Positions 1 to 14,120 of a stretch of 17,436 nucleotides of DNA are shown piece by piece. The position numbers were made by a program, and so were the translations under genes. This stretch comes from Planctomycetota bacterium. Its GTDB lineage: Bacteria; Planctomycetota; Planctomycetia; Pirellulales; Pirellulaceae. Each line of letters begins with the position of its first letter. The first letter of the stretch is position 1. The notes under the pieces are model-generated. The model worked only from the letters and a program-made list of their open reading frames with translations, was not told the DNA's origin and did no database searches. The stretch is from the NCBI GenBank assembly GCA_026692885.1, contig JAPLNJ010000364.1:1-17436 (forward strand), written 5' to 3'.

Positions 1-38
1 GTGGAATTGCGTTTCGTACACTACGTCGGCAGGCGCCA

Positions 39-111
39 GCCGTATTGTCTTCCGCCGCATCCCGCCCGCCGCAGGAGGCAGCGGGCGGGATGCGGCGGAA
101 GACAGTACGGC
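39..111. repeat. Large hairpin repeat (about 31-bp arms)
   Basis: Positions 39-69 are the reverse complement of 81-111 apart from one G-T wobble, with an 11-nt centre at 70-80. The arms contain CTTCCGCCGCATCCCGCCCG and its complement. The reading frames across it are artefacts of the palindrome: arginine- and proline-rich, with no recognisable family. It looks like a dispersed palindromic intergenic repeat (REP or MITE-like). The structure is seen directly; the assignment to a dispersed repeat family is inference. Confidence 0.8.
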
Positions 112-208
112 GGTTGCGGACCCGTGGTGTGGTCCAGAAACCTCGCTCCACCGGGGCAAGCCCGGATGGGGGCGGAACGGCCTTGATCGGAATGTTGCGC
201 AAAACGCT

Positions 209-313
209 AGCAGCAGAAGCTCAAGGGTGGCTGGGGCAGAGTGCAGCGATGCCCCAGAAACCGGGTACTGGGGCTTCGCTTAGGCTCAGCCGCCAGCCAC
301 CCGGGCTGCTGCT
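209..313. repeat. Imperfect composite hairpin repeat
   Basis: Nested inverted repeats: AGCAGCAG at 209-216 pairs with CTGCTGCT at 306-313, and GGGTGGCTGG at 225-234 pairs with CCAGCCACCC at 293-302. Inside, CTGGGGC (231-237), GCCCCAG (251-257) and CTGGGGC (268-274) alternate in orientation. Together with the hairpin at 39-111 this fills most of the non-coding stretch 1-437. I see no credible gene there. Probably another intergenic palindromic repeat family; no function is visible. Confidence 0.6.
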
Positions 314-361
314 GGCACGGACGGCTGTGCGCAACCTAACGATCAAGGCCAACAGAGGCTG

Positions 362-389
362 TTGACAGGCGTCCCATCTTCGCTACAGT
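362..389 (+). promoter_or_regulatory. Sigma70-type promoter for the alcohol dehydrogenase
   Basis: TTGACA at 362-367 and TACAGT at 384-389 are separated by 16 nt. This is a perfect -35 box and a -10 box with two mismatches to consensus. A start near 396 would give a leader of about 40 nt before the ATG at 438. No operator was recognised. Confidence 0.65.
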
Positions 390-437
390 CTTGCCACCGC
401 AGGCCACGTTAAGTCATAGGTTCCAGGAGAATCCCGC

Positions 438-1580
438 ATGCTCAACTTCATGTTCAAGAATCCCACGGAGATTTTGTTCGGCCGAGGGATGATCGCTGAG
501 ATTGCCCCCCGCGTGCCGATGGACAGACCGGTGTTATTCGTCTACGGCGGTGGTTCGATCAAACGTAACGGGGTGTACGACCAGGTGCGCGCGGCGCTCG
601 CGAAGCACCGCTTGGTGGAATTCCCTGGCATCGAGGCGAATCCGCTCTACGAGACCTGCCTGCAGGCTGTCGAGGTTGTGAAGCGGGAGCAGATCGGGTT
701 CCTGCTGGCCGTCGGAGGCGGGTCGGTCCTGGACGCGGCCAAGTTCATTGCGGCGGCGGCCGTGTTCGAGGGGCCGGAACCTTGGGACATCCTGCGTACC
801 GTCGGGCGCAATGTGAACAGTGCCTTGCCGCTGGGCACGGTGCTGACCCTGCCCGCCACCGGTTCCGAGTGCAATGGCGGCTCGGTGATTTCCCGCCAGG
901 CGACCAAGGAGAAGCTCTTCTTCCTTTCGCCTCACACGTTCCCCGTGTTCTCGGTCTTGGACCCGGAGACGACCTACACCTTGCCGCCCCAACAGGTCCG
1001 CAATGGCATTGTCGACGCCTTGGCCCATGTCTGCGAGCAGTACTTAACCTATCCGGCCGCCGCGCCGCTGCAGGACCGGTTGGCCGAGTCGCTGCTGCAG
1101 ACGCTGATCGAAGTCGGACCGGTGACGTTGGCCGAGCCGCGGAACTACGACGCCCGAGCCGCGTTCATGTGGAGCGCCACCTTGACGCTGAACAACCTGA
1201 TCGGCAGCGGCGTGCCCCAGGACTGGGCGACGCACATGATCGGGCACGAGCTGACCGCTTTCTACGGCCTGGACCATGCCGAGACGCTGGCCATCGTGAT
1301 GTTGGGCGTGTGGCGGCACCGGCTGGGGCAGAAGCGCGCGAAGTTGGAGCAGTATGGCCGCCGCGTGTGGAACGTGTCCACCGCCGAAGAGGCCCTCGCC
1401 AAGACCGAGGAGTTCTTCCACTCCCTTGGTATGCCCACCCGGTTGAGCGATTATCAGATCGTCGCTGAGGACGCGGCGGAGAGAGTCCGCCTCCGCTTCA
1501 CTGAGCGGCAAGTGGCCTACGGCGAACGCGGCGATTTCGGCGCTGCCGACGCCGCGGCTGTGCTGCAGTTGCGGGCGTGA
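438..1580 (+). CDS. yqhD: NADPH-dependent iron-containing alcohol/aldehyde dehydrogenase, YqhD type
   Basis: A 380-residue cytosolic group III metal-dependent alcohol dehydrogenase, close in length and sequence to E. coli YqhD (387 residues), which reduces a broad range of short aldehydes with NADPH. The nucleotide-binding motif GGGS lies at 37-40 and a second GGGSVLD at 93-99. The PATGSE segment is at 139-144. The predicted metal ligands are D193, H197, H266 and H280, within NGIVDALAH and THMIGHEL...GLDHAETL, and all four are present. GVPQDWATHM at 258-267 is also typical of YqhD. The ATG at 438 follows AGGAGA at 425-430 with a 7-nt spacer, and the promoter at 362-389 lies just upstream. It appears monocistronic, since a large palindrome starts 3 nt after the stop. 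Family knowledge suggests detoxification of reactive aldehydes; the in vivo substrate is not visible from sequence. Confidence 0.93.
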   Translation: MLNFMFKNPTEILFGRGMIAEIAPRVPMDRPVLFVYGGGSIKRNGVYDQVRAALAKHRLVEFPGIEANPLYETCLQAVEVVKREQIGFLLAVGGGSVLDAAKFIAAAAVFEGPEPWDILRTVGRNVNSALPLGTVLTLPATGSECNGGSVISRQATKEKLFFLSPHTFPVFSVLDPETTYTLPPQQVRNGIVDALAHVCEQYLTYPAAAPLQDRLAESLLQTLIEVGPVTLAEPRNYDARAAFMWSATLTLNNLIGSGVPQDWATHMIGHELTAFYGLDHAETLAIVMLGVWRHRLGQKRAKLEQYGRRVWNVSTAEEALAKTEEFFHSLGMPTRLSDYQIVAEDAAERVRLRFTERQVAYGERGDFGAADAAAVLQLRA

Positions 1581-1583
1581 GTT

Positions 1584-1706
1584 AGGACCGGCGCATCAAT
1601 AAGTGTCGGGTTTTCAAAGTAGTCATCACGCTCCGCGTGATGACATGTCGTCACGGCGGAGCGTGACGACTACTATACTTGCGACAGTTATTGATGCGCC
1701 GGTCCT
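1584..1706. repeat. Double-nested palindromic repeat element
   Basis: The outer arms are 1584-1608 and 1682-1706, 25 nt each with one mismatch, beginning AGGACCGGCGCATCAATAA. The inner arms are 1618-1644 and 1647-1674, which form a near-continuous palindrome around AGTAGTCATCACGCTCCGC with a few substitutions. The element starts 3 nt after the dehydrogenase stop and fills most of the gap to the next gene. Its transcript could fold from either strand and might act as a transcription barrier, but it has no downstream T-run. I associate the inner motif with dispersed repeats in planctomycete genomes (recollection, not verified). A MITE-like element is the simplest reading. Confidence 0.75.
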
Positions 1707-1775
1707 TAGTCGTGGCTCACGGCGAACCGCTCATCGGGTTAGGCGACCTGTCCCTCATCTGGGAGATCAACCACG

Positions 1776-4700
1776 ATGTCCACCGTATCACGAGTCGTGT
1801 TCCCGATCCACGTCTGCCTTGGCATCTCGATGTCTTGGTGCCTTGGTGTCTGCCTCTTCGCCGGCCGCGGCGACGCGGCCACCGAAGCTGTCGCAACCTT
1901 CCAAGATAGACTGGCCAAGAACGTGCCACCGGGCACGACCGTGACCGTCGACGGCAAGGCCGGCCCACTGGTCGGCAATGTGGCGGTGACCAACCTTCGC
2001 GGGGAGCCCGGCAAGCCGATTGTCATTCGCAGCGTGGGCGAGGAGCGGGCCGTGATCCGCGGCAAGTTCCAGCTGACCGGCGCGGCGTACGTCGTGTTGG
2101 AGCGCCTGGCTTTCGAGCCGAATGTGGCGGATGAGACCGACGGGCCGTGGGTCAGTCTGGAAGGCGATCACATCGAGTTCCGCGACTGTGCGATTCGCGG
2201 CGCGCCGGGCGACGGGTTGCGCATGCGCGGCGCGGGCACTGTGGTCGAGGGCGGCGAGGTATCCGCGTGCGAGGGGCACGGCCTCGTGCTCGACGGCTCG
2301 GCGCGAGTCAACGGGGTGCGCGTCGCGGCGTGCCGTCAGGGCGGCCTGCGCGTGGGTGGCGAGACCACCGTCAGCAACTGCCTGCTGCTGCACAATCGCG
2401 GCCCGGCGGTGGAGGCAGAGAATGGCGCCGCGCTGCGGTTCTATCACAACTTGGTCTACGACAACGGTGGCGGACTACTACTCGACGCCTGCCGCAGCAC
2501 ACGCCTGCTCAATAACCTGTTCCTCAATAATTACGCCACACCGTTGCTCACGGACCGTGACGTGGAGCTCAGCGTACGGGACAACGCCGAGATCGACCAC
2601 AACATCTATTTCCGCCATCCCGGCAAAGACAAGCTGCTGCGCGGGCTGCCTTACGCCCAGGGCGTCGATCTCAGCCCGCTGGCGTCCGACAATCCGCTGG
2701 GGCTGCGATTGCGGGTAGTTCGGGAGGGCGAGGCTCCCGCCGAGCTGCGTGGAAACGCTTCACGCGACATCACGGCTCGGCAGGAGCCTCGCCCTCCCAG
2801 CCCCGCAACGGCGCCGGTTCTGTCCGTCGGCCGCGACTTGGCAATGGATCGCCGGTGGACGGAGAAGTTCGACCAGCATTCACAGTGTCTGGACATCCTG
2901 CAGCGGCTGACGGGCGAGAATTCCTACACACGTTGCTACGAGGATCTGTTCGCCGATTTCCAACAGGAGGATTTCCGACCCCGATACACCAGCCCGGCGG
3001 TCGGCTGCGGCGCGGATTTGACGGCCGAGGTTCCCGCCGATGTGGCGGGGCAGCCGCGTTCCGCTAAGCATCCGGACATCGGACCGTACGCCGCGCCGGC
3101 GAAGTGGTGGGAGGATCTCGACTCCGGTCGCGCCACGATCGTCGACGGCAACCTGGGGCTGGATGCGCAAGGCCGCGACTGCGGACTGGGCATCCCGGAC
3201 AAGCCGTTTGCCACGTTGGCCAAAGCGCTGGCCTTGGCCCGCTGGGGTAGCCGGATCTACATCCGGGATGCCATCTACCGCCACACGGCCATGCAGACCA
3301 CGTTCTCGTTGGGTCCGGATGCGGTGGTCAGCGGTTTCCCCGGTCATCGCCCGGCCTTCAGCCCGTCGGAATTCATCGCGCCATCCCGCTGGGAAAAAGT
3401 CTGCGGCGGCTCCGAACCGGGGAGTGGCGACGCCCGGGACGATCAGCGTCTGTCCCAGGTTCCGGGGCAACCAGGTCTGTATCGCCTCCGCGACTGGCAT
3501 ACGTTTCTGGGCTACAACTGCCGCACGAACGCATGGGCGCTGGACTACTACGGCAACGCTCGTGTCGGCGGAGCGGGCGAGAACACGACCAGCCTGAGTC
3601 GCAATCTGGCCCAGGTGGGGAAACCCTTCCGCCCGATTCGCTACCTGACGCTCGACCGAGACACGCCCCAGGTGTTGGTCGATGGCGTGGCGCTGCAACA
3701 GGCGGGCGGCGTACTGGGACTGGAGGAGTTCAGCATTGGGACGATGAGTGCCTGGGGACGGGACGTGGCCCACCTGCGACCGGGTTCGTTCATCGTCGGC
3801 CGCCGCGATTTTCTCGTCAGCCGCGCGGTCGGCCAAGGCAGCTTGCAGGACGGCCAGTCGTTCCTGGAAGGCCTGAACCGCGATCCGGAAATGAACCACC
3901 GGATCGACGGTCGCTCGACGGGCTACGTCTCTGCGTTTGTGGCTCGCCCCGCGGTCCTGTGGCAGGTTCGGCAGACGTATCCCGGCGGTGATCGCCTGTG
4001 GCAACTCGATCCGACTGTGACCGGGAAGTTCGGGCAGACCACGCGTCGCCTGCTTCAGGATGGCTGGCGGCAAGTAGCCACGAACCAGGACTCGGCCTGC
4101 TGGGTGCGGCAGTTTGCCTTGCCGGCCTGCGGATTGAAACAGGCCGACGGCGCGGTGCTGCGGCGGGCTGAGGGCCGGTTGAACCGTGACCAGTTGCCGC
4201 TGCACGGCTGGCTGCAGCGCCAGTTCCAGACGGGCGACGCGGCACTCGCGGCTGTGTTGGACAATCCGTATCAGGATTACCTGGAAGTCCGCCTGCCGAC
4301 AGGCGTCGATCCGAACCAGAGTGGTCTGACCGTCAGCTGCTTCACCGGCCGCGTGGAAGCCGTGTGGCGCAAGAGCGCTCCCGGCGAATACAATCCGGGC
4401 GTCAATCAGCCGGGCTTGGCCATGCTGAGCCACTTCCGCACGATGGAAGTCGGCGTGACCGCCGAAGCGACGGCCGCCACGGCCACGCAGCCCTGGCAGT
4501 TCGGCTGCCTCGTGCCGCTGGGCGAGTCCGCGCCGACGCTGCTGATGCGCATGCCGGCCGACGTGGATCCTAATGCCGAGGATCCGTGGAAGTTCACGGT
4601 CGTCGACGACTGCCTGTACGTGCAGCTGCCTCAAGGCGAATCACCGACCAACCACGCCGTGGAAGTCGCCTGCCACAGTGGCAGCTCGGTGCCGTCGCCC

Positions 4701-7700
4701 GTCGGCAGTAATCCGTCCTTTTTCGACTGGCAGGACGCGGGACCGCTGCGGCCGGACTGGCCGGCAGTCCGCGTCTACCGCACGGAACTCGATTTCGGCA
4801 GCAATACGTTGGAACCGTTGTGGTCCACCGGCGGCCCGGTTGTGGGTAGCCAAGGCTTCCAACTCGATGCAGCCGATCCGACGGGCCGAACGCTGTGCCT
4901 GCTGCAGGAAGTGCGATTGGACGCCGGTGACCCGCCGGGTGGAGCCGCCGAGAAGATCCTGATCATCCGCTACTCCGAGGGCGACCCAGCCTCACCGACC
5001 AAACGCGAACATCGCGTCAGTTCCCAGGCGATTGGTCCCGATCGTCGGATCGTCTTGCCCAGCCAGCCGATCGCTTTCGACTCGCGTCACGTCTTCTGCA
5101 TCGCTCCTGCGACTGAGCCGGGCAGAATGGCCGAGCAGCTTGTGTCGACCTCGCTGCGGCCCGTGTCCGCCAAGCCGGCCTTGGCGCAGGGGACTTACTA
5201 CTACGACGCCACCGGCCATACGCTCTACCTGTGCCCGTTTCCGGGCAGCGAGCCGGCCGCCTCCCGCTGGGTCGGCGGGCGCAGCGATCCGGTGCACTTG
5301 GTGCGGGGTCTGTACACGTTGGGCGGCAACGCGTACGGCCATCAGAAGCAGTACTGCTGGGGCTGTGGGCTGGGGCTGCCAGCGGACGTCTACGAGGACG
5401 TCACCGCCGGCTTCAGCCCGGGGCACACGCTCAGCACCGTGCCCGGCACGGTGGTGCGAAATTGCACCTTTCGCTGGTGCGGGGCCGATGTCGGCCGCGG
5501 CGGCGAAGTGTCGGGCGACGAGCGGCACACGGCCGACCGGATCAAACGGCCGGAACTACACGTCGACCACTGCGTCTTTGACGTGGGCAACGCGTTCCTG
5601 TTCGATGGCAACGACAGCCCGACCAAGAACATCCCGTTCGGTAATCATCACCTCTGGGAAAACAGTTACTTCCTGCCGGCCATGGGCGGCCTGATGGGCC
5701 CGTGGTGGGATCAGTATTGTTTCAACAACGTGGTCCAGAACTGCCTGTTTGCCGGACGCGGCGGAGTAGACGTCGAGGTCTCCGAAAACCTGATCGTCCG
5801 TAACAATCTGTTCACGACCGACAAGGGTAACCTGGTCACGTTTCGCGGCTCGGATCGCGGGTATGTGCTGAACAACACCACGTTTCGCGGCGGAGGGATT
5901 TGGTATCACAGCGAACCCGAACGGGCCAACAGCACCGAGCAGGGGCAGCCCACGTACGGCCCGAACTTCCCCATCGTCCAGCGCGGCCCGGTCCCCTGGT
6001 TGACGATCGACCAGATCGGCCACGAAAAGTCGATCCGCCTGGACGTGCGGTGGCTGCCGCTGGCCGATCACGCGGAGGTCTGCTACTGCGAAAACTGGGA
6101 TTTTCCCTCGCCGCTGTTGATCGATGCCCAGGGCTTCGCGGCGTATCGCGCGGTGAGCAGTCTGGCCGAGTTGCAGCGGGGCTGCTACTTCCACGATCCG
6201 TCGGCGCGCCGGCTGTACCTGCGTCAGACCGACGGCAGCCCGCCGCGTTCGGCCGCCGTTCCAGCGCCGCACATTCCACAAACGGAACAGGTCCGACGCG
6301 ATCTGGTTTACACCCTGACCGTCGTGCGCCCCGGGCGGCTGTCGATCCCCTATCAGGCGATATCCAAGACCGAGTTGGAGTTATTGGAACCGCCTCAGCC
6401 GGGCGAGACAATCGAGGTCTGGTACTGCGAGACGCCCCAGCGCGGCCGGGAGGGCGAGGCTCCCTCGGGGCAGCTTCCCGTGCGGCGTGTGGAGCGGTTC
6501 CCGATCTTCGCCGAAATGCTGAAGCTGGGTCGGCCGCGGCTGCGGTTGAGCGGCCGGCCGGCCGACGATCGGCTGTTCGTCGGCCGGGCCGGCGAGCAAC
6601 CTCCGCTGGTGCGCGTGACCGGATCGTGGAAAGATGTGCGGCCGTTCGAGGCGGAGTTGATCCCCGGCGGCTCGGTCGTCGCGTCCGCGGTGATGGGCTT
6701 GCAGTTCAATATCCTGCGCGGGTATTTCCCGCAGCTGCAGCCGGGCGAACAGTTCGAATCCGTACTGCACTCGCGTTCCGTCTATCACCTGTCGAGTCTG
6801 AACAATGTCTTTCTCGACGTCCGCTCGACGGTGGCCAGCGACGCGATGGACAACATGCACCACGGCGCTAACTACATGCTGTACACCGAACAGACCGACC
6901 CGTCCCATTCGCAGATCGACTACAACTGCTACTGGAAGGATCTGCGCGCCGTGCCAGGGCCGCTCTCGGCGCATGTCCAATGGGGCCAGCTGCGGGTCTG
7001 GAACTCAACCTCCCACAAAGCGGGCATTACGATTCCGGAATTCCACGAGCAGACGGGCTACGAACAGCATGGGCTGAGCCCCGCGTCGTACTTCACCCTC
7101 GTGGCCAATCCGCTGCGGTACGACTTCCGCCCGCTGCCGGATTCGCCCTTACTCGGCACGGGCGTCGTGACCAAACAGCAGGTGGGGTCGTTTCTGTTCG
7201 ATCCCGACATGGAGAATGGGCAGCAACGATTCACTTACCCTGGGAACGAACGGGACGCCTTCGGCCGGCCGCGCGGCGACCGACCGAGCATCGGCGCAGT
7301 CCAGCACCCCTGCCCCGGTGCCCAAGCCTACTACCTGGCTCCCGACGGCGCGGACGCTCCAGACCGCGGGACGCGTCAGGCCCCCTGGGCCACGGCGACC
7401 TACGCCCTGGCTCGGCTGCGGCCGGGAGATTTGCTGGTACTGCGGCCCGGTACGTATCGTCAGCCGATCGTCGTGCGGCGTTCGGGCACCCCGCGCGACT
7501 TCCTGCACATCGTGGCCGAAAACCCGCCGTACGAGACACCGGCAAAATTCCCCACCGGGGGTTCCACCGTCCTGGACGCCGCCAGCCTAGGCAGCCGTCC
7601 GATGGTGCTCTTGGACGGCTGCGCCCATGTTCGCGTGGCCGGTCTCCGGGTGGTCCACTCGGCAGCCCCGGCGGCCGTCGAGTTGCGCGAGACACGCGAC

Positions 7701-9143
7701 TGTGTGGTTGAGTACGTGTTTGTGGAGCAGCCTACCGGCGCCGGGATCCGGGCGACCGGCCGCGGCAACACGCTCTACGAATGCAGTGTGGCGGGCGGCA
7801 CGGTGGGCTACGAACTGGCCGGCTCGCTGACGGATGTCCGCTGGTGCGTGAGCCGCGACAACGCCACGGGCTTTCGCGCGATCGGCCCGCTGGCCGGGCT
7901 GCTGCTGTTGCAGAACCGACACCACGGCGGCGACCAACGCAGTCAGGCCGGTTTCGATTTCGCAATACCAACGTCCGACGTGGTCTTCGACGGAAATTGG
8001 GTCGATTCCGCCAACTGCGGCTATCAGCTCAGCGGCCGGCGAGTGCTGCTGGCCAACAACCTGGCCGATCAGACGGAGACAGGTATCCGCGTGACGGCCG
8101 GGACAGACGTGCGATTGTTCAACAACAGCGTGCTGCGCGCCGCCCACGACGCGCTGGTCCTCGGCCGGGGAGTCCGTTCCGCCCTGGTGCTGAACAATGT
8201 GTTGCAAGCCGAGCGGAACCACGTGGTGGTTAGCTCGAAGACGATCTGGGTCGACTACAACCTCTACGCCCGGGCGTCGCTGCCGTTCCAGCTGAACGCC
8301 AAGCTCGGCGATCAGTCTCTCAGCGACTTGGCTGCCTGGTCGGCCGCCACCGGTTGGGATCGCAACTCACGCGTGGCTCCGCTGGTGTACTTCAAGCAGC
8401 AAGACCGCAATGGCCGCTGGCGTGTGCGGGAGGCGTGCATCTCGGTCACCAATGTCACACCGGACTACAACGTCGGGGCGTTGGGCGCGAACGCTTACCC
8501 CTACGCTGGCGGTGGAACGTACATCCTGGACTTGCCGCAGAACTGGAAACCGCACGGCGACCCGGCCCGACGGGTGTACGTCTTCGATGTGGAGCCCTAC
8601 GAAGGTGCGATGGCCGCTCGCGCGTACTGGTATCTGGCCCGGGTCGATTATCGGCGGAGCGACGGTAGCCGCAGTACCACAGACCTGCCTCGCGTCTACG
8701 TCCCGCGCGAGCAGATGCCCGCGGGTTCGTTTCTTCAAGAGGGTGCGACGGGCCGCGTCTACGTGCGACTGCCGGCGGACGCGCAAGAGCCGTGTCCCAT
8801 CGGCAAGCATCTGAAGCTCAGCCCGTCGCAGGCCGTCGGGTACTACGTGGGCCGCGAAGTCACGGGCGCCGCCGAGAAGTATCGCGGCAAGTTGGTCGGC
8901 GAGAGTCTAGCCCAGGCGATGGGGCAGGATGGCATCCAGGAGTTGGACGTCGTCGCGAACCTATTGTCCTGCGTCTGCGGCTCACCGACCTTCGAGCGGG
9001 GTTGTCCGATCCAGGGCCTCTGCCGCGACGCCGATAGTTGTCCGCGTCCCTCGGTGCCGCTGGGCCTGTCCGCCTTCGGCGCCCACGGCGGTCCCGGCCG
9101 CTTCGATGTGGGGGCCGCCGAGCACGGCTACTACGTCCCGTAG
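1776..9143 (+). CDS. Giant exported protein with three right-handed beta-helix modules
   Basis: A 2455-residue protein. The ATG at 1776 follows GGGAG at 1761-1765. Residues 8-30 are hydrophobic and are followed by RGDA-ATEA, consistent with a signal peptide cleaved near residue 34. Module 1 (about 50-440) has short parallel beta-helix coils such as NCLLLHNRGP and LLNNLFLNN and closes with HPDIGPY. Module 2 (about 455-1845) opens with a D-G...KPFATLAKALALA segment and has long non-helix insertions. Its clear helix coils at about 1222-1380 include FNNVVQNCLF, IVRNNLF and VLNNTTF, and it closes with RPSIGAVQHP. Module 3 (1851-2455) opens YYLAPDGAD...APWATATYALARLRPGD, has coils up to about 2170, and closes with FDVGAAEHGYYVP. 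Repeated DxGAxE-like endings are typical of such modules. No C-terminal membrane anchor or sorting signal is seen. The fold is shared with pectate lyase-like polysaccharide-active enzymes, but I cannot identify catalytic residues or a substrate. Residues 316-341 are encoded by an inserted palindromic repeat. Confidence 0.85.
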   Translation: MSTVSRVVFPIHVCLGISMSWCLGVCLFAGRGDAATEAVATFQDRLAKNVPPGTTVTVDGKAGPLVGNVAVTNLRGEPGKPIVIRSVGEERAVIRGKFQLTGAAYVVLERLAFEPNVADETDGPWVSLEGDHIEFRDCAIRGAPGDGLRMRGAGTVVEGGEVSACEGHGLVLDGSARVNGVRVAACRQGGLRVGGETTVSNCLLLHNRGPAVEAENGAALRFYHNLVYDNGGGLLLDACRSTRLLNNLFLNNYATPLLTDRDVELSVRDNAEIDHNIYFRHPGKDKLLRGLPYAQGVDLSPLASDNPLGLRLRVVREGEAPAELRGNASRDITARQEPRPPSPATAPVLSVGRDLAMDRRWTEKFDQHSQCLDILQRLTGENSYTRCYEDLFADFQQEDFRPRYTSPAVGCGADLTAEVPADVAGQPRSAKHPDIGPYAAPAKWWEDLDSGRATIVDGNLGLDAQGRDCGLGIPDKPFATLAKALALARWGSRIYIRDAIYRHTAMQTTFSLGPDAVVSGFPGHRPAFSPSEFIAPSRWEKVCGGSEPGSGDARDDQRLSQVPGQPGLYRLRDWHTFLGYNCRTNAWALDYYGNARVGGAGENTTSLSRNLAQVGKPFRPIRYLTLDRDTPQVLVDGVALQQAGGVLGLEEFSIGTMSAWGRDVAHLRPGSFIVGRRDFLVSRAVGQGSLQDGQSFLEGLNRDPEMNHRIDGRSTGYVSAFVARPAVLWQVRQTYPGGDRLWQLDPTVTGKFGQTTRRLLQDGWRQVATNQDSACWVRQFALPACGLKQADGAVLRRAEGRLNRDQLPLHGWLQRQFQTGDAALAAVLDNPYQDYLEVRLPTGVDPNQSGLTVSCFTGRVEAVWRKSAPGEYNPGVNQPGLAMLSHFRTMEVGVTAEATAATATQPWQFGCLVPLGESAPTLLMRMPADVDPNAEDPWKFTVVDDCLYVQLPQGESPTNHAVEVACHSGSSVPSPVGSNPSFFDWQDAGPLRPDWPAVRVYRTELDFGSNTLEPLWSTGGPVVGSQGFQLDAADPTGRTLCLLQEVRLDAGDPPGGAAEKILIIRYSEGDPASPTKREHRVSSQAIGPDRRIVLPSQPIAFDSRHVFCIAPATEPGRMAEQLVSTSLRPVSAKPALAQGTYYYDATGHTLYLCPFPGSEPAASRWVGGRSDPVHLVRGLYTLGGNAYGHQKQYCWGCGLGLPADVYEDVTAGFSPGHTLSTVPGTVVRNCTFRWCGADVGRGGEVSGDERHTADRIKRPELHVDHCVFDVGNAFLFDGNDSPTKNIPFGNHHLWENSYFLPAMGGLMGPWWDQYCFNNVVQNCLFAGRGGVDVEVSENLIVRNNLFTTDKGNLVTFRGSDRGYVLNNTTFRGGGIWYHSEPERANSTEQGQPTYGPNFPIVQRGPVPWLTIDQIGHEKSIRLDVRWLPLADHAEVCYCENWDFPSPLLIDAQGFAAYRAVSSLAELQRGCYFHDPSARRLYLRQTDGSPPRSAAVPAPHIPQTEQVRRDLVYTLTVVRPGRLSIPYQAISKTELELLEPPQPGETIEVWYCETPQRGREGEAPSGQLPVRRVERFPIFAEMLKLGRPRLRLSGRPADDRLFVGRAGEQPPLVRVTGSWKDVRPFEAELIPGGSVVASAVMGLQFNILRGYFPQLQPGEQFESVLHSRSVYHLSSLNNVFLDVRSTVASDAMDNMHHGANYMLYTEQTDPSHSQIDYNCYWKDLRAVPGPLSAHVQWGQLRVWNSTSHKAGITIPEFHEQTGYEQHGLSPASYFTLVANPLRYDFRPLPDSPLLGTGVVTKQQVGSFLFDPDMENGQQRFTYPGNERDAFGRPRGDRPSIGAVQHPCPGAQAYYLAPDGADAPDRGTRQAPWATATYALARLRPGDLLVLRPGTYRQPIVVRRSGTPRDFLHIVAENPPYETPAKFPTGGSTVLDAASLGSRPMVLLDGCAHVRVAGLRVVHSAAPAAVELRETRDCVVEYVFVEQPTGAGIRATGRGNTLYECSVAGGTVGYELAGSLTDVRWCVSRDNATGFRAIGPLAGLLLLQNRHHGGDQRSQAGFDFAIPTSDVVFDGNWVDSANCGYQLSGRRVLLANNLADQTETGIRVTAGTDVRLFNNSVLRAAHDALVLGRGVRSALVLNNVLQAERNHVVVSSKTIWVDYNLYARASLPFQLNAKLGDQSLSDLAAWSAATGWDRNSRVAPLVYFKQQDRNGRWRVREACISVTNVTPDYNVGALGANAYPYAGGGTYILDLPQNWKPHGDPARRVYVFDVEPYEGAMAARAYWYLARVDYRRSDGSRSTTDLPRVYVPREQMPAGSFLQEGATGRVYVRLPADAQEPCPIGKHLKLSPSQAVGYYVGREVTGAAEKYRGKLVGESLAQAMGQDGIQELDVVANLLSCVCGSPTFERGCPIQGLCRDADSCPRPSVPLGLSAFGAHGGPGRFDVGAAEHGYYVP
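2722..2798. repeat. Palindromic repeat inserted in frame inside the giant ORF
   Basis: Arms 2722-2745 and 2775-2798 are 24 nt each and complementary except at one position. The left arm begins GGGAGGGCGAGGCTCCCGCC. The 29-nt centre contains a second small hairpin (GCGTGGAA / TTCACGC). It is translated as REGEAPAEL at the left arm and as TARQEPRPPS at the right arm, residues about 316-343. This peptide lies between beta-helix module 1 and the following segment and looks unlike its surroundings. It is a mobile palindromic repeat carried as coding sequence. Confidence 0.8.
6448..6464. repeat. Half copy of the in-frame palindromic repeat
   Basis: The 17 nt GGGAGGGCGAGGCTCCC are identical to the start of the left arm at 2722-2738 and sit in the same reading frame, again giving REGEAP (residues 1558-1563). 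No matching right arm follows. It is probably a decayed or partial insertion of the same repeat family. Confidence 0.6.
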
Positions 9144-9208
9144 ACGTCAGTTTGCATGGTTGTCATCCCTGTCGCTGAGAAACACCCTTCATCCTTACCA
9201 TCCCGATA

Positions 9209-9298
9209 GGAATGACCGGGCGGCGCGGCACCGTGACAGGGGCAACCATTCCGGAGACGCTCAAACCGCCGAACAACCGCCGCTCCGGTCCATCCGCT
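9209..9298 (-). other. attC-like hairpin 3' of hicA (element B)
   Basis: On the minus strand the left arm (9298 to 9278) reads GCGGAT-g-GACCGG-a-GCGGCG and the right arm (9225 to 9209) reads CGCCGC-CCGGTC-ATTCC. Twelve consecutive pairs form, with an unpaired a (9284) between the two 6-bp blocks and an unpaired g (9291) after them. The loop is 52 nt. The same two extrahelical bases, six nucleotides apart, occur in the hairpins at 10573-10646 and 12555-12624. It lies between the convergent ends of the giant ORF and hicA and would be the last site of the cassette cluster. An ordinary terminator would not need conserved bulges and has no T-run here. Confidence 0.5.
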
Positions 9299-9325
9299 TG
9301 TCCCACTCGTTTGCCCCAGTGACGA

Positions 9326-9511
9326 TCAGATTTCGGGGACGGACAGCCCCCGACAAATTTTCCTTGCCAGCTTGTTCGGAATCTCGACATGCCTGGGCAC
9401 CGCCTCCACTTCCCCTGTTTCCGGGTTCATCCAAAGCGAGTGCGACCGGCCTTCTCGCTTCAACACGCACCCGTGCCTGCGCAGATGCCTTAACAGAGCA
9501 GTCCGTTTCAT
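9326..9511 (-). CDS. hicA: HicA-family toxin (mRNA interferase)
   Basis: A 61-residue protein of the HicA/YcfA type with a double-stranded RNA-binding-like fold. HicA toxins are translation-independent mRNA interferases. Family features are the opening MKRTALLRHLRRHGCVLKREGRSHSLW, whose H24 in SHS is the expected catalytic histidine, and NPETGEVEAVPRHVEIPNKLARKI, the usual strand and C-terminal helix. The length is normal for the family and the gene looks intact. The ATG at 9511 overlaps the stop of the upstream antitoxin gene by four bases (ATGA, 9508-9511), which implies translational coupling. The antitoxin comes first, the reverse of the E. coli hicAB order but common elsewhere. Confidence 0.9.
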   Translation of the reverse strand: MKRTALLRHLRRHGCVLKREGRSHSLWMNPETGEVEAVPRHVEIPNKLARKICRGLSVPEI

Positions 9512-9723
9512 CCCAGCGACACCACTTCTTTGATAGCATCTTCCGGCACGCCACGGATGCCTTCTTCACGGCGATCTTCAAGAATCAATTCGATTGCTTC
9601 CGTCAAGCTCTGCTTGGCTTCCTCCTTCGTGCGTCCCTGCCCGTTGGCACCGGGGATCTCCGGGCAATAGGCAATCAGCCAGTCGCCGTCCTTCTCGATG
9701 ATCGCGGTAAACTCGTTACGCAA
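9508..9723 (-). CDS. hicB: HicB-family antitoxin, minimal form
   Basis: A 71-residue partner of HicA with the HicB partial RNase-H fold: FTAIIEKDGDWLIAYCPEIPGANGQGRTKEEAKQSLTEAIELILE. HicB proteins bind and neutralise HicA. I chose the TTG at 9723 because GGAGGG (9736-9731) sits 8 nt upstream. The longer in-frame TTG start at 9744 would add seven residues that overlap this Shine-Dalgarno. The protein ends soon after the HicB core, leaving no room for the C-terminal HTH or ribbon-helix-helix DNA-binding domain of longer HicBs. Autoregulation may therefore differ from E. coli. A promoter lies at 9775-9803. Confidence 0.88.
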   Translation of the reverse strand: MRNEFTAIIEKDGDWLIAYCPEIPGANGQGRTKEEAKQSLTEAIELILEDRREEGIRGVPEDAIKEVVSLG

Positions 9724-9730
9724 GATTCTT

Positions 9731-9736
9731 CCCTCC
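9731..9736 (-). promoter_or_regulatory. Shine-Dalgarno deciding the hicB start
   Basis: The minus strand reads GGAGGG from 9736 to 9731, 8 nt upstream of the TTG at 9723. It favours this start over the upstream TTG at 9744. Confidence 0.7.
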
Positions 9737-9774
9737 GTATTCAAGCGGCCCAGCCTTGATCACATACCGGCCAA

Positions 9775-9803
9775 ATTGTAGCCAGATCGTCGCGGCCGGA
9801 CAA
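9775..9803 (-). promoter_or_regulatory. Promoter for hicBA
   Basis: On the minus strand TTGTCC (9803-9798) and TACAAT (9780-9775) are separated by exactly 17 nt. A start near 9768 would give a leader of about 45 nt before hicB. The promoter lies in the 9724-9857 gap between hepT and hicB, so hicBA can be transcribed independently of mntA-hepT. Confidence 0.6.
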
Positions 9804-9857
9804 ACGTTCAAGAAGACCGACAGGCGTGGAATCGCGTTCCCTGATCGACCTCATGCT

Positions 9858-10226
9858 CTAGTTTGGTCGGTGGCCTTCCTTCGGCGTTTCCTCCAACACC
9901 CGCTGAACCAGCGGCAACAAGGGAGGGAGGTCCTCGGTGACCGTTTTCCAGACCACTTCCAAGTTCACGCTGACGTAGTCGTGCACCAACTTGTCGCGGA
10001 TCCCTGCCATCGAGCGCCAAGGGACCTCTGGGTGCCGGTCCCGAATCTCCGGCGGAATCCTCTTGGTGGCTTCGCCCAGGATCTCCAAAGCGCGGACTAC
10101 GGCATAGACCGTCTTGTCGTCGCCGAGGAAGTCCTCGTAGGCGATCCCCTCGACGAACTCCAGCGCCTTCTGGGCTGCCTGGGAGATATCCTCCAGGTGA
10201 TCCCGGTGATCGCGAGGTTGCTTCAT
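9858..10226 (-). CDS. hepT: HepT-like HEPN-domain toxin (DUF86 family)
   Basis: A 122-residue helical protein of the HEPN/DUF86 type. The RX4-6H ribonuclease motif is RDKLVH, with R77 and H82. It is followed at 84 by the tyrosine of the extended RX4HXY motif, which is AMPylated by MntA in the Shewanella HepT-MntA system. Other family features are DDKTVYAVVRALEILGEATKRIP at about 36-58 and PWRSMAGIRDKLVHDYVSV. The length is close to the family norm and nothing is missing. The ATG at 10226 overlaps the mntA stop by four bases (ATGA). The likely role is an RNA-targeting toxin held inactive by its neighbour; the RNA substrate is not visible from sequence. Confidence 0.9.
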   Translation of the reverse strand: MKQPRDHRDHLEDISQAAQKALEFVEGIAYEDFLGDDKTVYAVVRALEILGEATKRIPPEIRDRHPEVPWRSMAGIRDKLVHDYVSVNLEVVWKTVTEDLPPLLPLVQRVLEETPKEGHRPN

Positions 10227-10525
10227 ACCGCTTCAACCTCCGCGAGAACGTGTTGACCAATGGCTGGCTTGAGGGCTTCCGCCATAACCAAGTCCACGCG
10301 TACCCCCAGCAGGTCACTAAGGTAGTTCTCCAGTTCGACAAAGCGAATCAGGCCCGGGGTGTGGCGGAAACGTACCAGAACGTCGAGATCGCTTTCCGGG
10401 CCAGCCTCGCGGCGTACATAGGACCCGAACAGCCCCAGCGACTCGACTCCATAGCGTTCCCGCAGCAGCGGCAACTGCTGACGGAGAATGCCTCGCAACT
10501 CGGCGATGTCCCTTGGCTCAACCAT
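10223..10525 (-). CDS. mntA: MntA-type minimal nucleotidyltransferase antitoxin
   Basis: A 100-residue nucleotidyltransferase of the MNT family, the antitoxin of HepT. The motif GSYVRREAGPESDLD is a complete GSX10DXD (G34, S35, D46, D48), and the third carboxylate is D78 in VRVDLV, so the active site looks intact. Characterised MntA proteins inactivate HepT by adding AMP to its tyrosine (type VII toxin-antitoxin). I chose the ATG at 10525. An in-frame TTG at 10543 is possible but has no spacing to the nearby AAGG, and neither start has a strong Shine-Dalgarno. It is coupled to hepT by an ATGA overlap. The attC-like hairpin C lies about 50 nt upstream. Confidence 0.88.
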   Translation of the reverse strand: MVEPRDIAELRGILRQQLPLLRERYGVESLGLFGSYVRREAGPESDLDVLVRFRHTPGLIRFVELENYLSDLLGVRVDLVMAEALKPAIGQHVLAEVEAV

Positions 10526-10572
10526 CACTGTATTCTCAGACAACCTTCTGTCCGGCGATCTCGCACCGAACC

Positions 10573-10646
10573 GATAACCCGCCGATCACGCGGCGTGCAC
10601 CGAACCATCATCGCGAAACCCAACCGCGTGATCGGTCGGATTCATC
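10573..10646 (-). other. attC-like hairpin 3' of the TPR gene (element C)
   Basis: On the minus strand the left arm (10646 to 10624) is GAT-g-AATCCG-a-CCGATCACGCGG. The right arm (10593 to 10573) is CCGCGTGATCGG-CGGGTT-ATC. The inner 12 bp pair perfectly and the N6 block pairs with one wobble. The extrahelical a (10636) and g (10643) match elements A and B. The right end carries GTTATC, which resembles a GTT-initiated integron core box. The loop is 30 nt. The element fills the non-coding gap 10526-10747 between the TPR gene and mntA. Confidence 0.5.
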
Positions 10647-10747
10647 TGCTCGATCAGCCCGGTTTGGCCTCAATTCGACTTCCGCCTCCTCTTACCTTCG
10701 CGAAAAGGCGAGCTATCCTGACGGCGTGTGAAACCAGTGTCCTGCTT

Positions 10748-12004
10748 TCATGCCGCCATCGCAAACCGCCTCTCGGCCAGACCCGACGTGCGGATGGCGC
10801 TGGCGGAACGGGTCTCCCAGATCTTGGTGGTGATGGGCTTGTTCGCAGCCTCGAATGCGGCTAGGTTCCGCTTAGCTCGCTCGCTCGACGGATCGATTCG
10901 GATCGCGTTGTCGAAAGAAGCTCGCACCATCTCGGCGGGGAAGCCAAGCTCAGCCTGTGCCATAGCCATCCATTCGGAGACTTCACTCATGACGGCCGCA
11001 GAGCCGTTCATGGTGAGCGCTCGCTCGCAGAGCCTTCGGCACTCCTCAAAGCGTCCGTTCAGTAAGTTGTGATGGGCAAGAAAGACGTAGGGCCAAACAA
11101 GAGGGGAGCCCGTCCGGACCGCCAACTCGAGGTCTGTGATTCCACGGGGGCTCGTCCCATACAGCAGAATGCCTCTGGCAAGCAGAATCGCGTCGTTCTC
11201 TGGCTCGAGTTGCAGCCCTTGGGAATAGGATTCCAAGGCGGCTTGCGTCTTTCCGACGAACTCGTATCCGAAGCCAAGCAACGCGTGTATCGTCACGCAG
11301 GTTGAACGGTCGACTTCGCTCGGGTCTTTCTGCTGGACCCGAACGAGGGTTTCCTTCAAGATCGGCTCAAGACGGTCAAATACCTGGTTCGCTTCTGTCG
11401 CCGACGTAGTTCGCGCCGACAGCAAAACAATGTCAGCAGCACGCGCAATGGCGTGAGGTGAGAATCTCTCATATTCCTTCAGGTAGTCTCCTGCTAGGTT
11501 CTTGGCTGCTGCTGGGTTGGCAATATTCAAGGCGTACAAGAACATCGCCTGGTAGTTCTCGGTGTTAGGCTGGAGTCTCAACGCATGCTCGTAAAAAAGC
11601 GCAGCCGTCTCTGGATCTCCGGCTTCTAGCCAGATCGAGCCACGCAGGTAGCTGACCAACGCCGGGTCAATATGGGCTCGCCAACGCCGTAGGAGATCGA
11701 GAGCCCTATCCCACTCGCCCCGTTGTCTGGCCTCAAAGGCTTCATTCAGCTTGGCCTGTGCTTGGAAGTTCATCGGTTGTGCGGCAGGGGGCGGCTCGAC
11801 GAGGGAGTAGAGATCCTCCGAGAGGTTGCGGATACGGTTACGTTCGACTTCCGAGAGCGCTTTCCACGGGCCATCTGTTGCGTCACGAAGGGCGTCGGCT
11901 TCTGGCGAGTCATCTTTGCCAGCGGCGAGGAATTGGTGCAATTCGCGACTGCCACGCACCATCGCCACGTAGCTGGGGTTCATCGTCAAGGGTCTTGGCA
12001 TCAT
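10748..12004 (-). CDS. TPR-repeat protein of unknown function
   Basis: A 418-residue soluble protein, all-helical by eye, with no signal peptide. The N-terminal section has a segment at about 28-68 (GKDDSPEADALRDATDGPWK...SEVERNRIRNLSEDLYSL). I associate it with a group of planctomycete TPR proteins, but not confidently. TPR-like helix pairs are seen at about 80-110, 115-148, 236-285 (GYEFVGKTQAALESYSQGLQLEPEN) and 303-375 (NLLNGRFEECRRLCERAL; NAIRIDP). No catalytic domain is visible, so it is probably a scaffold or protein-binding partner. The ATG at 12004 is followed by a second ATG, and it starts 2 nt after the stop of the 135-residue gene upstream, so the two are almost certainly co-transcribed and functionally paired. 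Base composition looks less GC-rich than the flanking large genes. Confidence 0.8.
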   Translation of the reverse strand: MMPRPLTMNPSYVAMVRGSRELHQFLAAGKDDSPEADALRDATDGPWKALSEVERNRIRNLSEDLYSLVEPPPAAQPMNFQAQAKLNEAFEARQRGEWDRALDLLRRWRAHIDPALVSYLRGSIWLEAGDPETAALFYEHALRLQPNTENYQAMFLYALNIANPAAAKNLAGDYLKEYERFSPHAIARAADIVLLSARTTSATEANQVFDRLEPILKETLVRVQQKDPSEVDRSTCVTIHALLGFGYEFVGKTQAALESYSQGLQLEPENDAILLARGILLYGTSPRGITDLELAVRTGSPLVWPYVFLAHHNLLNGRFEECRRLCERALTMNGSAAVMSEVSEWMAMAQAELGFPAEMVRASFDNAIRIDPSSERAKRNLAAFEAANKPITTKIWETRSASAIRTSGLAERRFAMAA

Positions 12005-12006
12005 GA

Positions 12007-12414
12007 TTATGTCTCGTCTTCTTGCCAGTCCGGCCGAGTTGCCGCTAGGTCTGCTTCGTAGGTGGCGAGAGGGACGACCTGGGCAGGGGCCACGTTGCCA
12101 TGCGTCGCGGAGTCCGGCTCCAGGGTAAGACCGTTCGCGAAGGCCCCTTGCATAAAAGCACCGTTCCCCATGCGGAAGCAGAAACTGTTGTTACTACCAC
12201 CAGATCCTTGGACCATCGGCCGAAGTCGCTTCGGTATGCGATTGACGTTTATGTCTCGCCAGTTCGGCGCGACCGACATCCCCTTGCCATTTACCAGTAC
12301 GTTGTTTTGGGCATCGAGATCTACATCACCCCCTGGACGAACGCCTAGACTCGTTTGGCTGACCGTCGGCAAACCATCGGGGTCCTTTCTAATGACACGA
12401 AACACTCGGGGCAT
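12007..12414 (-). CDS. Conserved-looking small protein of unknown function
   Basis: A 135-residue protein that I do not assign to a named family. It opens MPRVFRVIRKDPDGLPTVSQ, then LGVRPGGDVDLDAQNNVLVNGKGMSVAPNWRDINVNRIPKRLRP, a glycine/asparagine segment GSGGSNNSFCFRMGNGAFMQG, and ends VAPAQVVPLATYEADLAATRPDWQEDET. The pattern looks like a compact folded domain with no signal peptide or membrane segment. A clear AGGAG (12425-12421) lies 6 nt before the ATG. It is the first gene of a two-gene unit with the TPR protein. Given its neighbours (toxin-antitoxin pairs and a restriction enzyme), a toxin or effector role is conceivable but is inference only. Confidence 0.75.
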   Translation of the reverse strand: MPRVFRVIRKDPDGLPTVSQTSLGVRPGGDVDLDAQNNVLVNGKGMSVAPNWRDINVNRIPKRLRPMVQGSGGSNNSFCFRMGNGAFMQGAFANGLTLEPDSATHGNVAPAQVVPLATYEADLAATRPDWQEDET

Positions 12415-12442
12415 ATTCGTCTCCTGGCGTGCGTGTTGTGTC

Positions 12443-12598
12443 CTAGTGGCATCTGGCCAACAGTAGCGTCGGCGCGTCCCAATCGCCGAAAATGGGCTCG
12501 GTGTTGAAGAGCTTAGGTTCCTCTTTCAGGCGATCAATTGATTGAACAACGACACGGATCAGATGGGCGGCCCGTCCGGCCCAGATCCAAATTTCCAA
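12443..12598 (-). CDS. Possible short ORF or gene remnant after the Mrr gene
   Basis: A 51-codon ORF from a TTG, containing LEIWIWAGRAAHLIRVVVQ and IDRLKEEPKLFNTEPIFGDW. It is in the same frame as the Mrr gene and is open right up to the Mrr stop at 12632. The residue composition looks like a real protein. The IFGDWDAPTLLLA segment vaguely recalls the N-terminal strand region of uracil-DNA glycosylase-like proteins, which would make it a truncated remnant. Against it, there is no strong Shine-Dalgarno, and its first third is the right arm of the hairpin at 12555-12624. The remainder of 12415-12631 holds only that hairpin and the leader of the next gene. Confidence 0.3.
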   Translation of the reverse strand: MEIWIWAGRAAHLIRVVVQSIDRLKEEPKLFNTEPIFGDWDAPTLLLARCH

Positions 12599-12624
12599 CC
12601 CAGTGGCCGCCTCATCTGCATCCG
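12555..12624 (-). other. attC-like hairpin 3' of the Mrr gene (element A)
   Basis: On the minus strand the left arm (12624 to 12605) is CGGAT-g-CAGATG-a-GGCGGCC. The right arm (12572 to 12555) is GGCCGCC-CATCTG-ATCCG. Eighteen pairs form without mismatch, leaving only g (12619) and a (12612) unpaired. The loop is 32 nt. The right end continues TGTCGTTGTTC (12554-12544), which contains a GTT core-like triplet. It lies 7 nt past the Mrr stop. It has the same bulge spacing as elements B and C with unrelated stem sequence, as expected for integron attC sites. Confidence 0.55.
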
Positions 12625-12631
12625 CTGGCGG

Positions 12632-13516
12632 CTAGGTGTCTTGTTCGAACTGGGCAAAAAAGCTGGGATCGACATCGTATGTGGTCCGAGGGATCAGCCC
12701 CAACTCCAATGACTCGAATAGTTCGATTAACTTTTCACCATCGACTAATTCAATTGGTGGAACACCATCCCGAACAGCTTCCTTCAGCGCGTCCGAGGAA
12801 AACGAGCCAGTAGTCAAAATAATCCCCTTGTCGGCGCGTCCCTGCATGGCGCCGCGGAAGTCTCTCACCACGGAGGAACCTACGACGCCCGCATATCGCT
12901 TGCACTGGAAACAAACTTTGAACGCGACGAACGCGTTGAGCTTTAGTACGCCGATGCCGTCGATTCCGCCATCGCGAGAACGACCTGTCACGACAACTTG
13001 CTCAAAATCGGATTCACGCAATAGTCGCTGGCATAGGCGCTCAAAGGCCCCAGGCGAAATACTCCGGATCAGCGCCAGTAACTGAGTCTCATACCCTGAT
13101 TCTTCGGGCGATTCTGCGTCAGCCTCTCCATCAGATTCTTCATCGTCCTCCGCGTCGGCATTTGGCTTACCGTCAACGCCGCTAACCTTCTTTCCTTGGC
13201 GCTGCACATCGAGAAGGAGTTGGTTAACCTCGTCGTCCGAGAGAATTGGTGCGTTTCTTCCTTTCTCCGTCAGCGTCCATACTCCGCGTCTTGATCGGTC
13301 AAGATAGCCGGTGAGAACGAGATATAACCGCACCCAGGCGATCTTGTTCTTAAATCTGGAGACTCCGGCGCTGATTGTCTCCTCAAGCTCTGGCGAGCCC
13401 TCCAGGCTGAGGTCCTTCGCGACGGCGCGACAAACCTCGCCAGGACGCGCAGAGCCCCCAAGCCGTTTGATGGCCTGCAAAACCGGGTTCACATACTGAC
13501 CGACCTGCTGCGCCAA
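12632..13516 (-). CDS. mrr: Mrr-type restriction endonuclease (type IV-like)
   Basis: A 294-residue protein. The N-terminal Mrr_N winged-helix (about 9-92) reads YVNPVLQAIKRLGGSARPGEV...NKIAWVRLYLVLTGYLDRSRRGVWTLTEKG. It is followed by a very acidic linker at about 121-140 and a C-terminal Mrr_cat nuclease domain (about 150-255). Catalytic PD-(D/E)XK residues are D186 in RDGGIDGIG and Q204-x-K206 in FQCKRY, and the upstream helix F-E (E159) is present. Mrr enzymes cut modified foreign DNA; the modification recognised here is unknown. I chose the TTG at 13516 because GGGAGG (13528-13523) lies 6 nt upstream and the Mrr_N domain begins right after. The longer TTG start at 13570 would add 18 residues without homology. 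It is driven by its own promoter at 13622-13650. Confidence 0.9.
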   Translation of the reverse strand: MAQQVGQYVNPVLQAIKRLGGSARPGEVCRAVAKDLSLEGSPELEETISAGVSRFKNKIAWVRLYLVLTGYLDRSRRGVWTLTEKGRNAPILSDDEVNQLLLDVQRQGKKVSGVDGKPNADAEDDEESDGEADAESPEESGYETQLLALIRSISPGAFERLCQRLLRESDFEQVVVTGRSRDGGIDGIGVLKLNAFVAFKVCFQCKRYAGVVGSSVVRDFRGAMQGRADKGIILTTGSFSSDALKEAVRDGVPPIELVDGEKLIELFESLELGLIPRTTYDVDPSFFAQFEQDT

Positions 13517-13522
13517 ACCAGA

Positions 13523-13528
13523 CCTCCC
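13523..13528 (-). promoter_or_regulatory. Shine-Dalgarno deciding the mrr start
   Basis: The minus strand reads GGGAGG from 13528 to 13523 with a 6-nt spacer to the TTG at 13516. It supports the short form of the protein over the start at 13570. Confidence 0.7.
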
Positions 13529-13621
13529 GTGCCGCCGAACGTCTAATTCGCCCGCCAGCTGCCCCGCCAATAACTTAGGGCGGCAATTCCGGCGGGATAA
13601 CGCACACCAAGAGCAACGGTG

Positions 13622-13650: not shown

Positions 13651-14120
13651 ACCTTTATTGCGATTCTTTACGTGCTGCGCCGCCGGTTTTGGCGGCAGGT
13701 ACATGCTCGAGCCTCCGCCTGTTGCTCGTGCGGTATCGATCAGCTCGCCAAGTCCCGGTCATGGATTCCGTCCCCTAGTTGTATTGCGGACCACCGCGGC
13801 GACAATAGGGGCGTTCTGGAGCAGGAAGCAGGCACGGCCAGAAGAGAACTGGGTTGACGCCGATTGGGCGGATGTGCGCTGGTGCGTATCCGCGGTGAGC
13901 GGCGCTATTCGTGAATCCGCGTTTTGTTGTTCTAGTGCTCCAACGTACTTCGTGTGGCGAGTTGAATCGTGCAACCGCGACCCGGCACGCGCTGCGGGTG
14001 GGGGGAGCGCGCTCGGAGACGCCGAGCCGCTCGGCGCGCTCCCCGTTGGGTTGCGGTTAAACGAACCAGTCAGGTTACATGGCCCGGAGTACTCGATACC
14101 TTGCATAGGAGAGCAGTTCG
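13651..14120. other. Gene-free stretch between the island and the PQQ protein gene
   Basis: The open frames on both strands lack recognisable protein character (low-complexity Arg/Ser/Pro/Cys). No integrase, tRNA or remnant was recognised. The stretch holds the inverted repeat at 13973-14058 and, near its end, the Shine-Dalgarno of the next gene. A promoter for that gene could not be assigned with confidence. Confidence 0.5.
13973..14058. repeat. Two-tier inverted repeat
   Basis: The outer arms AACCGCGACCC (13973-13983) and GGGTTGCGGTT (14048-14058) pair at 10 of 11 positions. The inner arms GGGGAGCGCGC (14002-14012) and GCGCGCTCCCC (14034-14044) pair perfectly over 11 bp. The centre is itself GC-rich and partly self-complementary. 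It lies about 60 nt upstream of the PQQ gene start. It could be a dispersed palindromic element or a transcription-blocking structure between the island and the gene. Confidence 0.65.

Follow-up and report, generated by a model that had tools for sequence, protein, structure and literature searches.

The attC sites of integrons are described as having a conserved sequence that is confined to the AAC and GTT triplets, with cutting placed in the R' box of the bottom strand (PMC2727003). Earlier papers already cover clusters of attC sites lacking an integron integrase (CALINs), as well as the integrons and attC sites of planctomycetes (PMC8618304, PMC9024848, PMC2426708, PMC8352920). Here we analyse a 17,436-nt sequence, hereafter the window, from contig JAPLNJ010000364.1 of a Planctomycetota bacterium (Pirellulaceae), whose minus strand carries three hairpins, h1, h2 and h3, among restriction and toxin–antitoxin genes. 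We consider it likely that the locus is an attC-derived, CALIN-like cluster without a visible integrase, in which the hairpins are intact, the crossover triplets have mutated and the cassettes were captured and then stranded.

As in the published description of the Vibrio cholerae attC site (VCR; PMC2727003), the extrahelical bases lie on the R''-L'' arm, the second (T) 6-8 nt from the first; unlike that description, the first is here mostly a g when read on the gene strand, corresponding to C on the bottom one, and the R boxes of the window are altered. With CALINs, as far as PMC8618304 and PMC9024848 describe them, the locus shares three sites on one strand, no integrase seen in 17 kb, and toxin–antitoxin plus restriction genes, but CALINs are defined by attC sites and the three sites of the window are all altered at a crossover triplet. 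With the chromosomal attC sites described for Planctomycetes (PMC8352920), it appears to share the phylum, and it shares the array habit and a folded stem with extrahelical bases; most of the audited sites of relatives also have an R'' with AAC, 5-nt and 6-nt spacers and an R' with GTT. The window differs in having AAC at 0/3 and GTT at 1/3 sites, a comparison made with the published description.

Three hairpins with a common core

On the minus strand, genes and hairpins follow one another in the order mrr, h3, orf135, the TPR-repeat protein gene, h2, mntA, hepT, a hicB-like gene, hicA and h1. The hairpins are:

9211..9294, minus strand: h1, attC-derived hairpin with an L''-L' stem, a loop and the bulges g and a, located 3' of hicA
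10573..10646, minus strand: h2, attC-derived hairpin, 3' of the TPR gene
12557..12622, minus strand: h3, attC-derived hairpin, 3' of mrr

Read along the gene strand, they share one architecture: GAT, an unpaired g, six paired bases, an unpaired a, at least six further pairs, a loop and an exact right arm. An earlier note on this DNA had described three minus-strand hairpins with constant g and a bulges and exact right arms, and this was borne out: all 45 core pairs (15 per hairpin) are formed without a mismatch, G-T pairs numbering 1, 1 and 0 in h1, h2 and h3, respectively. When read along the gene strand, both extrahelical bases belong to the 5' arm and are seven nt apart; since this placement matches the description of attC sites, it was counted for an attC-derived origin.

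The layout was searched for with criteria chosen after the hairpins had been seen. In its strict form (five inner pairs), it was found three times on the minus strand, not at all on the plus strand and not at all in 60 first-order Markov sequences. When the identity of the core triplet and of the bulges was freed, the minus strand yielded only the same three places and the plus strand one, against a simulated mean of 0.88 per strand, and when one mismatch and a longer loop were permitted, three extra minus-strand places appeared, none of them with GAT. A covariance model built from h1 and h2 alone recovered h3 (28.5 bits, E = 2.9 × 10−6, in 20.5 kb with filters off) and missed it under default filters. 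A fourth, decayed site was sought between 9100 and 14150, where nothing rose above chance. The idea that three GC-rich hairpins are alike by chance draws on their unremarkable fold energies (minus-strand z-scores of −0.17, −2.22 and −1.92) and on the layout having been set with the hairpins in view; it is scarcely credible, as the two-hairpin model finds the third hairpin and models derived from the hairpins find arrays in other genomes, which already refute it.

A search of the window against Rfam 15 (E up to 1) left the hairpins without a family match. The eight matches elsewhere in the window are all below gathering scores and mostly of microRNA type on long hairpins. A mobile element of a different type (REP/RAYT or IS200/IS605) or a structured RNA family could be the source of the hairpins: their GATG foot is similar to that of REP hairpins, and an open reading frame near one related site (locus L083) has a stretch that we take to be transposase-like. 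This origin is highly improbable given the Rfam result and the sites of relatives, which have R boxes, form arrays and in some cases lie beside the integron integrase gene, intI.

The same hairpin class in related genomes

Related genomes were searched with three covariance models, R1 (from h1 and h2), R2 (from h1-h3 and a site of relative genome G005) and R3 (from 23 sites). The family and order samples were those of another relative genome, G001, the order presumably being Pirellulales. R1 matched one of 61 genomes of the family, G005, a metagenome-assembled genome (MAG) named Pirellulales. R2 matched 9 of 119 family genomes at E ≤ 0.1, four by weak matches only, and the weak matches at L088, L089, L090 and L091 were set aside from further use. 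Over 392 genomes of the phylum, R2 matched at least 7, the best 10 candidates per genome being scored, and over 296 genomes of the order R3 matched at least 79 at E ≤ 0.01, the best 15 candidates per genome being scored. With 150 candidates scored in each, R3 matched G001, G003 and G005 and gave no match in G002 and G010. A strict motif scan of 71 loci with relatives of the PQQ-repeat protein that flanks the cluster (1.13 Mb) gave no match.

Around the stronger R2 matches the sites form one-strand arrays, of six sites at L101, four at L100, three at L102 and two at L098. Larger series were found at L167 (positions 1-12805; 25 sites in 12.8 kb, spaced 270-752 bases apart) and L168 (positions 1-7725; 11 sites in 7.7 kb), each on one strand; these and similar same-strand series are cassette arrays. 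Among the 49 loci with audited sites, two or more sites occur in 21, all on the same strand in 21/21, and the single-site loci (28/49) are short. A covariance search of relatives had been set as a test in the earlier note, and its outcome favours the proposal: same-strand arrays were found, some beside intI, and not merely scattered singles. The further suggestion of a lineage-specific attC type stands in so far as the class occurs in the arrays of related genomes; the type is not new, a covariance model of Planctomycetes attC being in print (PMC8352920).

The audited sites of relatives number 125 (86 + 10 + 29) and are part of all sites found. The 86 are what remains of 97 R3 matches after removal of 8 antisense copies and the 3 window sites, and the 29 are what remains of 38 after removal of 9 already counted or antisense. 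Kept among the 86 are L102:1322 (weak, misaligned) and L100:8329 (out of register), and 20 of the 86 also trained R3.

Structural covariation was examined in an alignment of 23 sites, 20 of them from relatives, which was fitted to the structure, so that its covariation figures lean that way. Pairs are formed in 98.8% of 345 cells, double changes occur at 12 of the 15 pairs, with 65 double-change cells versus 14.9 in shuffles, and the structure also exceeds every slid version of itself. The earlier claim that the stems covary around constant bulges is supported by the double changes, but the stems are not wholly free, as two pairs are invariant in all 23 sites, T-A in GAT and A-T at the second position of the block. 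In a further alignment (A9; 97 rows, window and antisense rows included), column 10 holds the first extrahelical base as read on the gene strand: g in 76 rows, c in 12, t in 3 and a gap in 6.

Association with the integron integrase

The integron integrase family TIGR02249 was detected in 89 of the 296 order genomes at E ≤ 1 × 10−40, in 76 of them over the curated cut-off. Taking both draws of 296 genomes as the same set, sites and intI occur together in 47 genomes, sites only in 32, intI only in 42 and neither in 175 (odds ratio 6.1, Fisher's test 1.5 × 10−10); that is, intI is found in 47/79 genomes with sites versus 42/217 without. At least one site is carried by 10 of 20 intI loci with up to 1.5 kb of flank, and in all ten (L107, L110, L111, L114, L116, L117, L118, L120, L123 and L124) the sites share the strand of intI and follow its 3' end. 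At L166, the gene for a full-length IntI of 347 aa and a hicB-hicA cassette are divergently oriented, the cassette being closed by the same hairpin, and at L101 a partial intI match (positions 1-180, below cut-off) lies beyond the array on the opposite strand. The intI layouts therefore differ (a same-strand 3' array versus the divergent arrangements of L166 and L101), but the hairpin class is identical.

IntI-family matches were also obtained in the first ten genomes (10/10 at E ≤ 0.001, none over the cut-off); they were rejected as evidence, since 14 of 14 control genomes match too, and are probably for the most part other tyrosine recombinases.

Because the hairpin class is found in arrays, beside intI and in intI-enriched genomes, we conclude that the hairpins derive from attC sites, and a planctomycete attC origin of all three is well supported. 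In the window no integrase is visible, the IntI proteins of L107 and L108 giving only matches at E ≥ 1 in the 17 kb. The proposal that the cassette cluster is of integron origin and has no visible integrase is upheld by the same-strand arrays, the proximity of intI (10/20 loci) and the intI enrichment, and we infer that the cassettes were captured by IntI in the past.

Crossover triplets of the window

The sites of relatives follow a regular layout: an R'' that ends in AAC and an R' that starts with GTT enclose the hairpin, from which they are separated by spacers of 5 and 6 nt, respectively. Searching 3-8 nt from the stem for AAC and 2-8 nt for GTT, we found AAC in 120 of 125 audited sites (82/86, 10/10 and 28/29) and GTT in 115 (78/86, 8/10 and 29/29), with a slight lean to sites keeping C, as R3 covers the last base of AAC and is blind to its other bases and to GTT. 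No site among the 125 lacks both triplets, and the left spacer is exactly 5 nt in 79 of the 86. The corresponding positions in the window read as follows:

9300..9306, minus strand: R'' position of h1, GTGGGAC, AAC absent
9198..9204, minus strand: R' position of h1, GGGATGG, GTT absent
10652..10658, minus strand: R'' position of h2, GCTGATC, AAC absent
10560..10566, minus strand: R' position of h2, GTGCGAG, GTT absent
12628..12634, minus strand: R'' position of h3, TAGCCGC, overlapping the mrr stop codon, AAC absent
12544..12550, minus strand: R' position of h3, GTTGTTC, GTT present

Compared with the 86 sites by Fisher's test, the window differs in AAC (3 × 10−4), in GTT (0.03) and in sites lacking both triplets (2/3 versus 0/86, 8 × 10−4). 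Altogether, 7 of 18 triplet bases have changed, while every core stem pair still forms. All three sites retain the C that precedes the left spacer and the G that follows the right one, and spacer-like sequence remains in register (AAGCG/CCTATC, for example), with ends that are undefined without R boxes. The earlier note had judged attC identity from the hairpins alone and overlooked the R boxes, which are altered in all three sites; as intact attC sites, h1-h3 are not supported. It had also taken the folded minus strand as the recombined one, whereas the strand recombined in the described systems is the bottom strand, here the plus strand of the window.

In an active integron, it is the bottom strand (here plus) that would fold and whose extrahelical bases IntI would recognise, the cut falling within the GTT/AAC triplet of R'. 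In the window the folded core is intact and, with AAC lost at all three R'' and GTT at two of the three R', the cluster is probably immobile at present; its cassettes would have been captured in the past and later stranded.

The persistence of a stem without its crossover triplet, and the position of each hairpin after the last gene of a unit, would also fit former attC hairpins that have been retained for a different function, such as forming RNA 3' ends or stabilising the mRNA of the cassette genes. We regard this as decidedly unlikely. No intrinsic terminator (a stem followed by a T run) was found at any hairpin, the scan giving one site in the region, elsewhere, and the 98.8% pairing in 23 sites, 20 of them from relatives, indicates that a good stem needs no extra function.

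Genes and cassette units of the cluster

The genes of the cluster are:

12632..13570, minus strand: mrr, Mrr-type restriction endonuclease (Mrr_N + Mrr_cat, domain match)
12007..12414, minus strand: orf135, conserved hypothetical protein without a Pfam domain
10748..12004, minus strand: TPR-repeat protein gene, partner of orf135
10223..10543, minus strand: mntA, putative nucleotidyltransferase antitoxin (NCBIfam match below cut-off)
9858..10226, minus strand: hepT, putative HepT-like ribonuclease (NCBIfam match below cut-off)
9508..9744, minus strand: hicB-like antitoxin gene (from its position and its similarity to the gene preceding hicA in L130 and L134; no Pfam match)
9326..9511, minus strand: hicA toxin gene (Pfam PF07927)

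They form three putative cassette units, mrr, orf135-TPR, and mntA-hepT plus hicB-hicA, each with its hairpin at the 3' end and in the same orientation, the last unit having four genes and one site. Over the cluster, the GC content in 1-kb windows drops to 0.55-0.61 from 0.64-0.68 in the flanks. A promoter scan yielded a single promoter-like site, ahead of hicB, a count not above the 1.2 expected.

The strongest case for cassette status is hicA. HicA is 53, 56 and 47% identical to the proteins of L130, L134 and L148, respectively, each encoded at an attC, which in L130 and L134 is canonical. From the hicA stop to the footprint of the attC model there are 8 bases in L130, 7 in L134 and 25 in the window, and the hicA open frame of L148 overlaps the start of the site. 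The TPR match adjoins orf135 in 18 of 20 loci, and orf135-TPR is a conserved two-gene unit. The product of orf135 (135 aa) has 289 relatives at E ≤ 0.001, many of them 80-93% identical, and none was found in viral contigs. Among the loci compared, mrr has no relative and mntA-hepT has one only at L065.

Observations that weigh against an attC-derived cluster

Several of our results count against reading the locus as an attC-derived cluster. The attC crossover triplets are mostly missing in the window (AAC 0/3; GTT 1/3, at h3 only). Upstream of GAT, AAC is found at 14 nt in h1, 15 nt in h2 and 20 nt in h3 instead of at 5 nt, and displaced R'' boxes are possible. The link to the integrase is incomplete: 32 of the 79 genomes with sites show no intI at the threshold used, and in five genomes with sites intI was found at E ≤ 1 × 10−30 in one, itself below the curated cut-off. 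As for the genes, a partial hicA match (L143:1-102) has no adjoining site, and orf135-TPR in relatives has no such site within ±1.5 kb at any of 20 loci, several of which end soon past the TPR gene. No attC lies between hepT and hicB, so that a single site serves both the mntA-hepT and the hicBA pair. The earlier picture of one cassette per unit accordingly fails for orf135-TPR and for the last unit, with its two toxin–antitoxin pairs. The orf135-TPR unit may consist of chromosomal genes picked up into the cluster, or of genes whose surrounding sites were lost. Finally, no empty-site relative was found among the 71 PQQ-protein loci, none of which is syntenic with the window.

The combination of intact stems and lost triplets also fits plain neutral decay poorly, with a best joint probability of 7 × 10−7 at any uniform rate, a figure that ignores both that the perfect stems drew attention to the hairpins and that an R box may change in one step by indels or off-target cassette insertion. 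Off-target insertion of the cluster would be expected to leave its junction at the R' of h1, the last site.

Alternatively, h1-h3 could be functional attC sites whose integrase has a relaxed or different core sequence, the triplet simply differing in this lineage and the stems being preserved by continued use. This would account for the 45/45 intact stem pairs, for the C and G kept beside the spacers in all three sites and for the concentration of changes on the triplets. We consider this explanation unlikely, as h1, h2 and h3 have no alternative core in common, the relatives' sites lacking both triplets are 0/125 and no integrase is seen in the window.

We therefore retain the attC-derived, stranded cluster as our reading. 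A more specific version of it is doubtful, namely that the cluster was locked by repeated mutation of the triplets alone, whether through selection disabling the cutting of useful defence or addiction cassettes, through error-prone resolution of the IntI crossover or through a new role of the hairpins. Triplet-only loss at every site of a cluster may be new; among the open-licence papers listed in searches on planctomycete integrons, attC structure, CALINs and altered R boxes, we recognised none on a cluster with all triplets altered. If true of more clusters, such loss would suggest how mobile toxin–antitoxin and restriction cassettes become fixed chromosomal genes. In practical terms, the hairpin core alone can suffice to recognise integron-derived clusters in uncultured planctomycetes, altered R boxes included, and searches anchored on R boxes may miss sites of this kind.

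Flanking genes and other repeats

The flanking genes, all on the plus strand, encode an iron-type alcohol dehydrogenase, a beta-helix protein of 2455 aa and the PQQ-repeat protein. Its nearest matches in the genome collection, at 69-70% identity, belong to two MAGs, one of Thermoguttaceae and one labelled Blastopirellula, so that the window probably comes from the same order, presumably Pirellulales.

Repeats of other kinds were observed in these flanks. Near-perfect inverted repeats flank the alcohol dehydrogenase gene, at 39-111 (34 bp, loop of 5 bases) and at 1579-1711 (arms of 30 bp separated by 73 bases). Within the beta-helix gene, the palindrome GGGAGGGCGAGGCTCCC occurs at 2722-2798 and 6433-6474, with in-frame readthrough as REGEAP at both places, and its core is present in 1 of 165 loci compared. 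Directly upstream of the PQQ gene start at 14121 lie nested inverted repeats (13973-14058), whose arms, read by eye, are 13973-13983/14048-14058 around 14002-14012/14034-14044.

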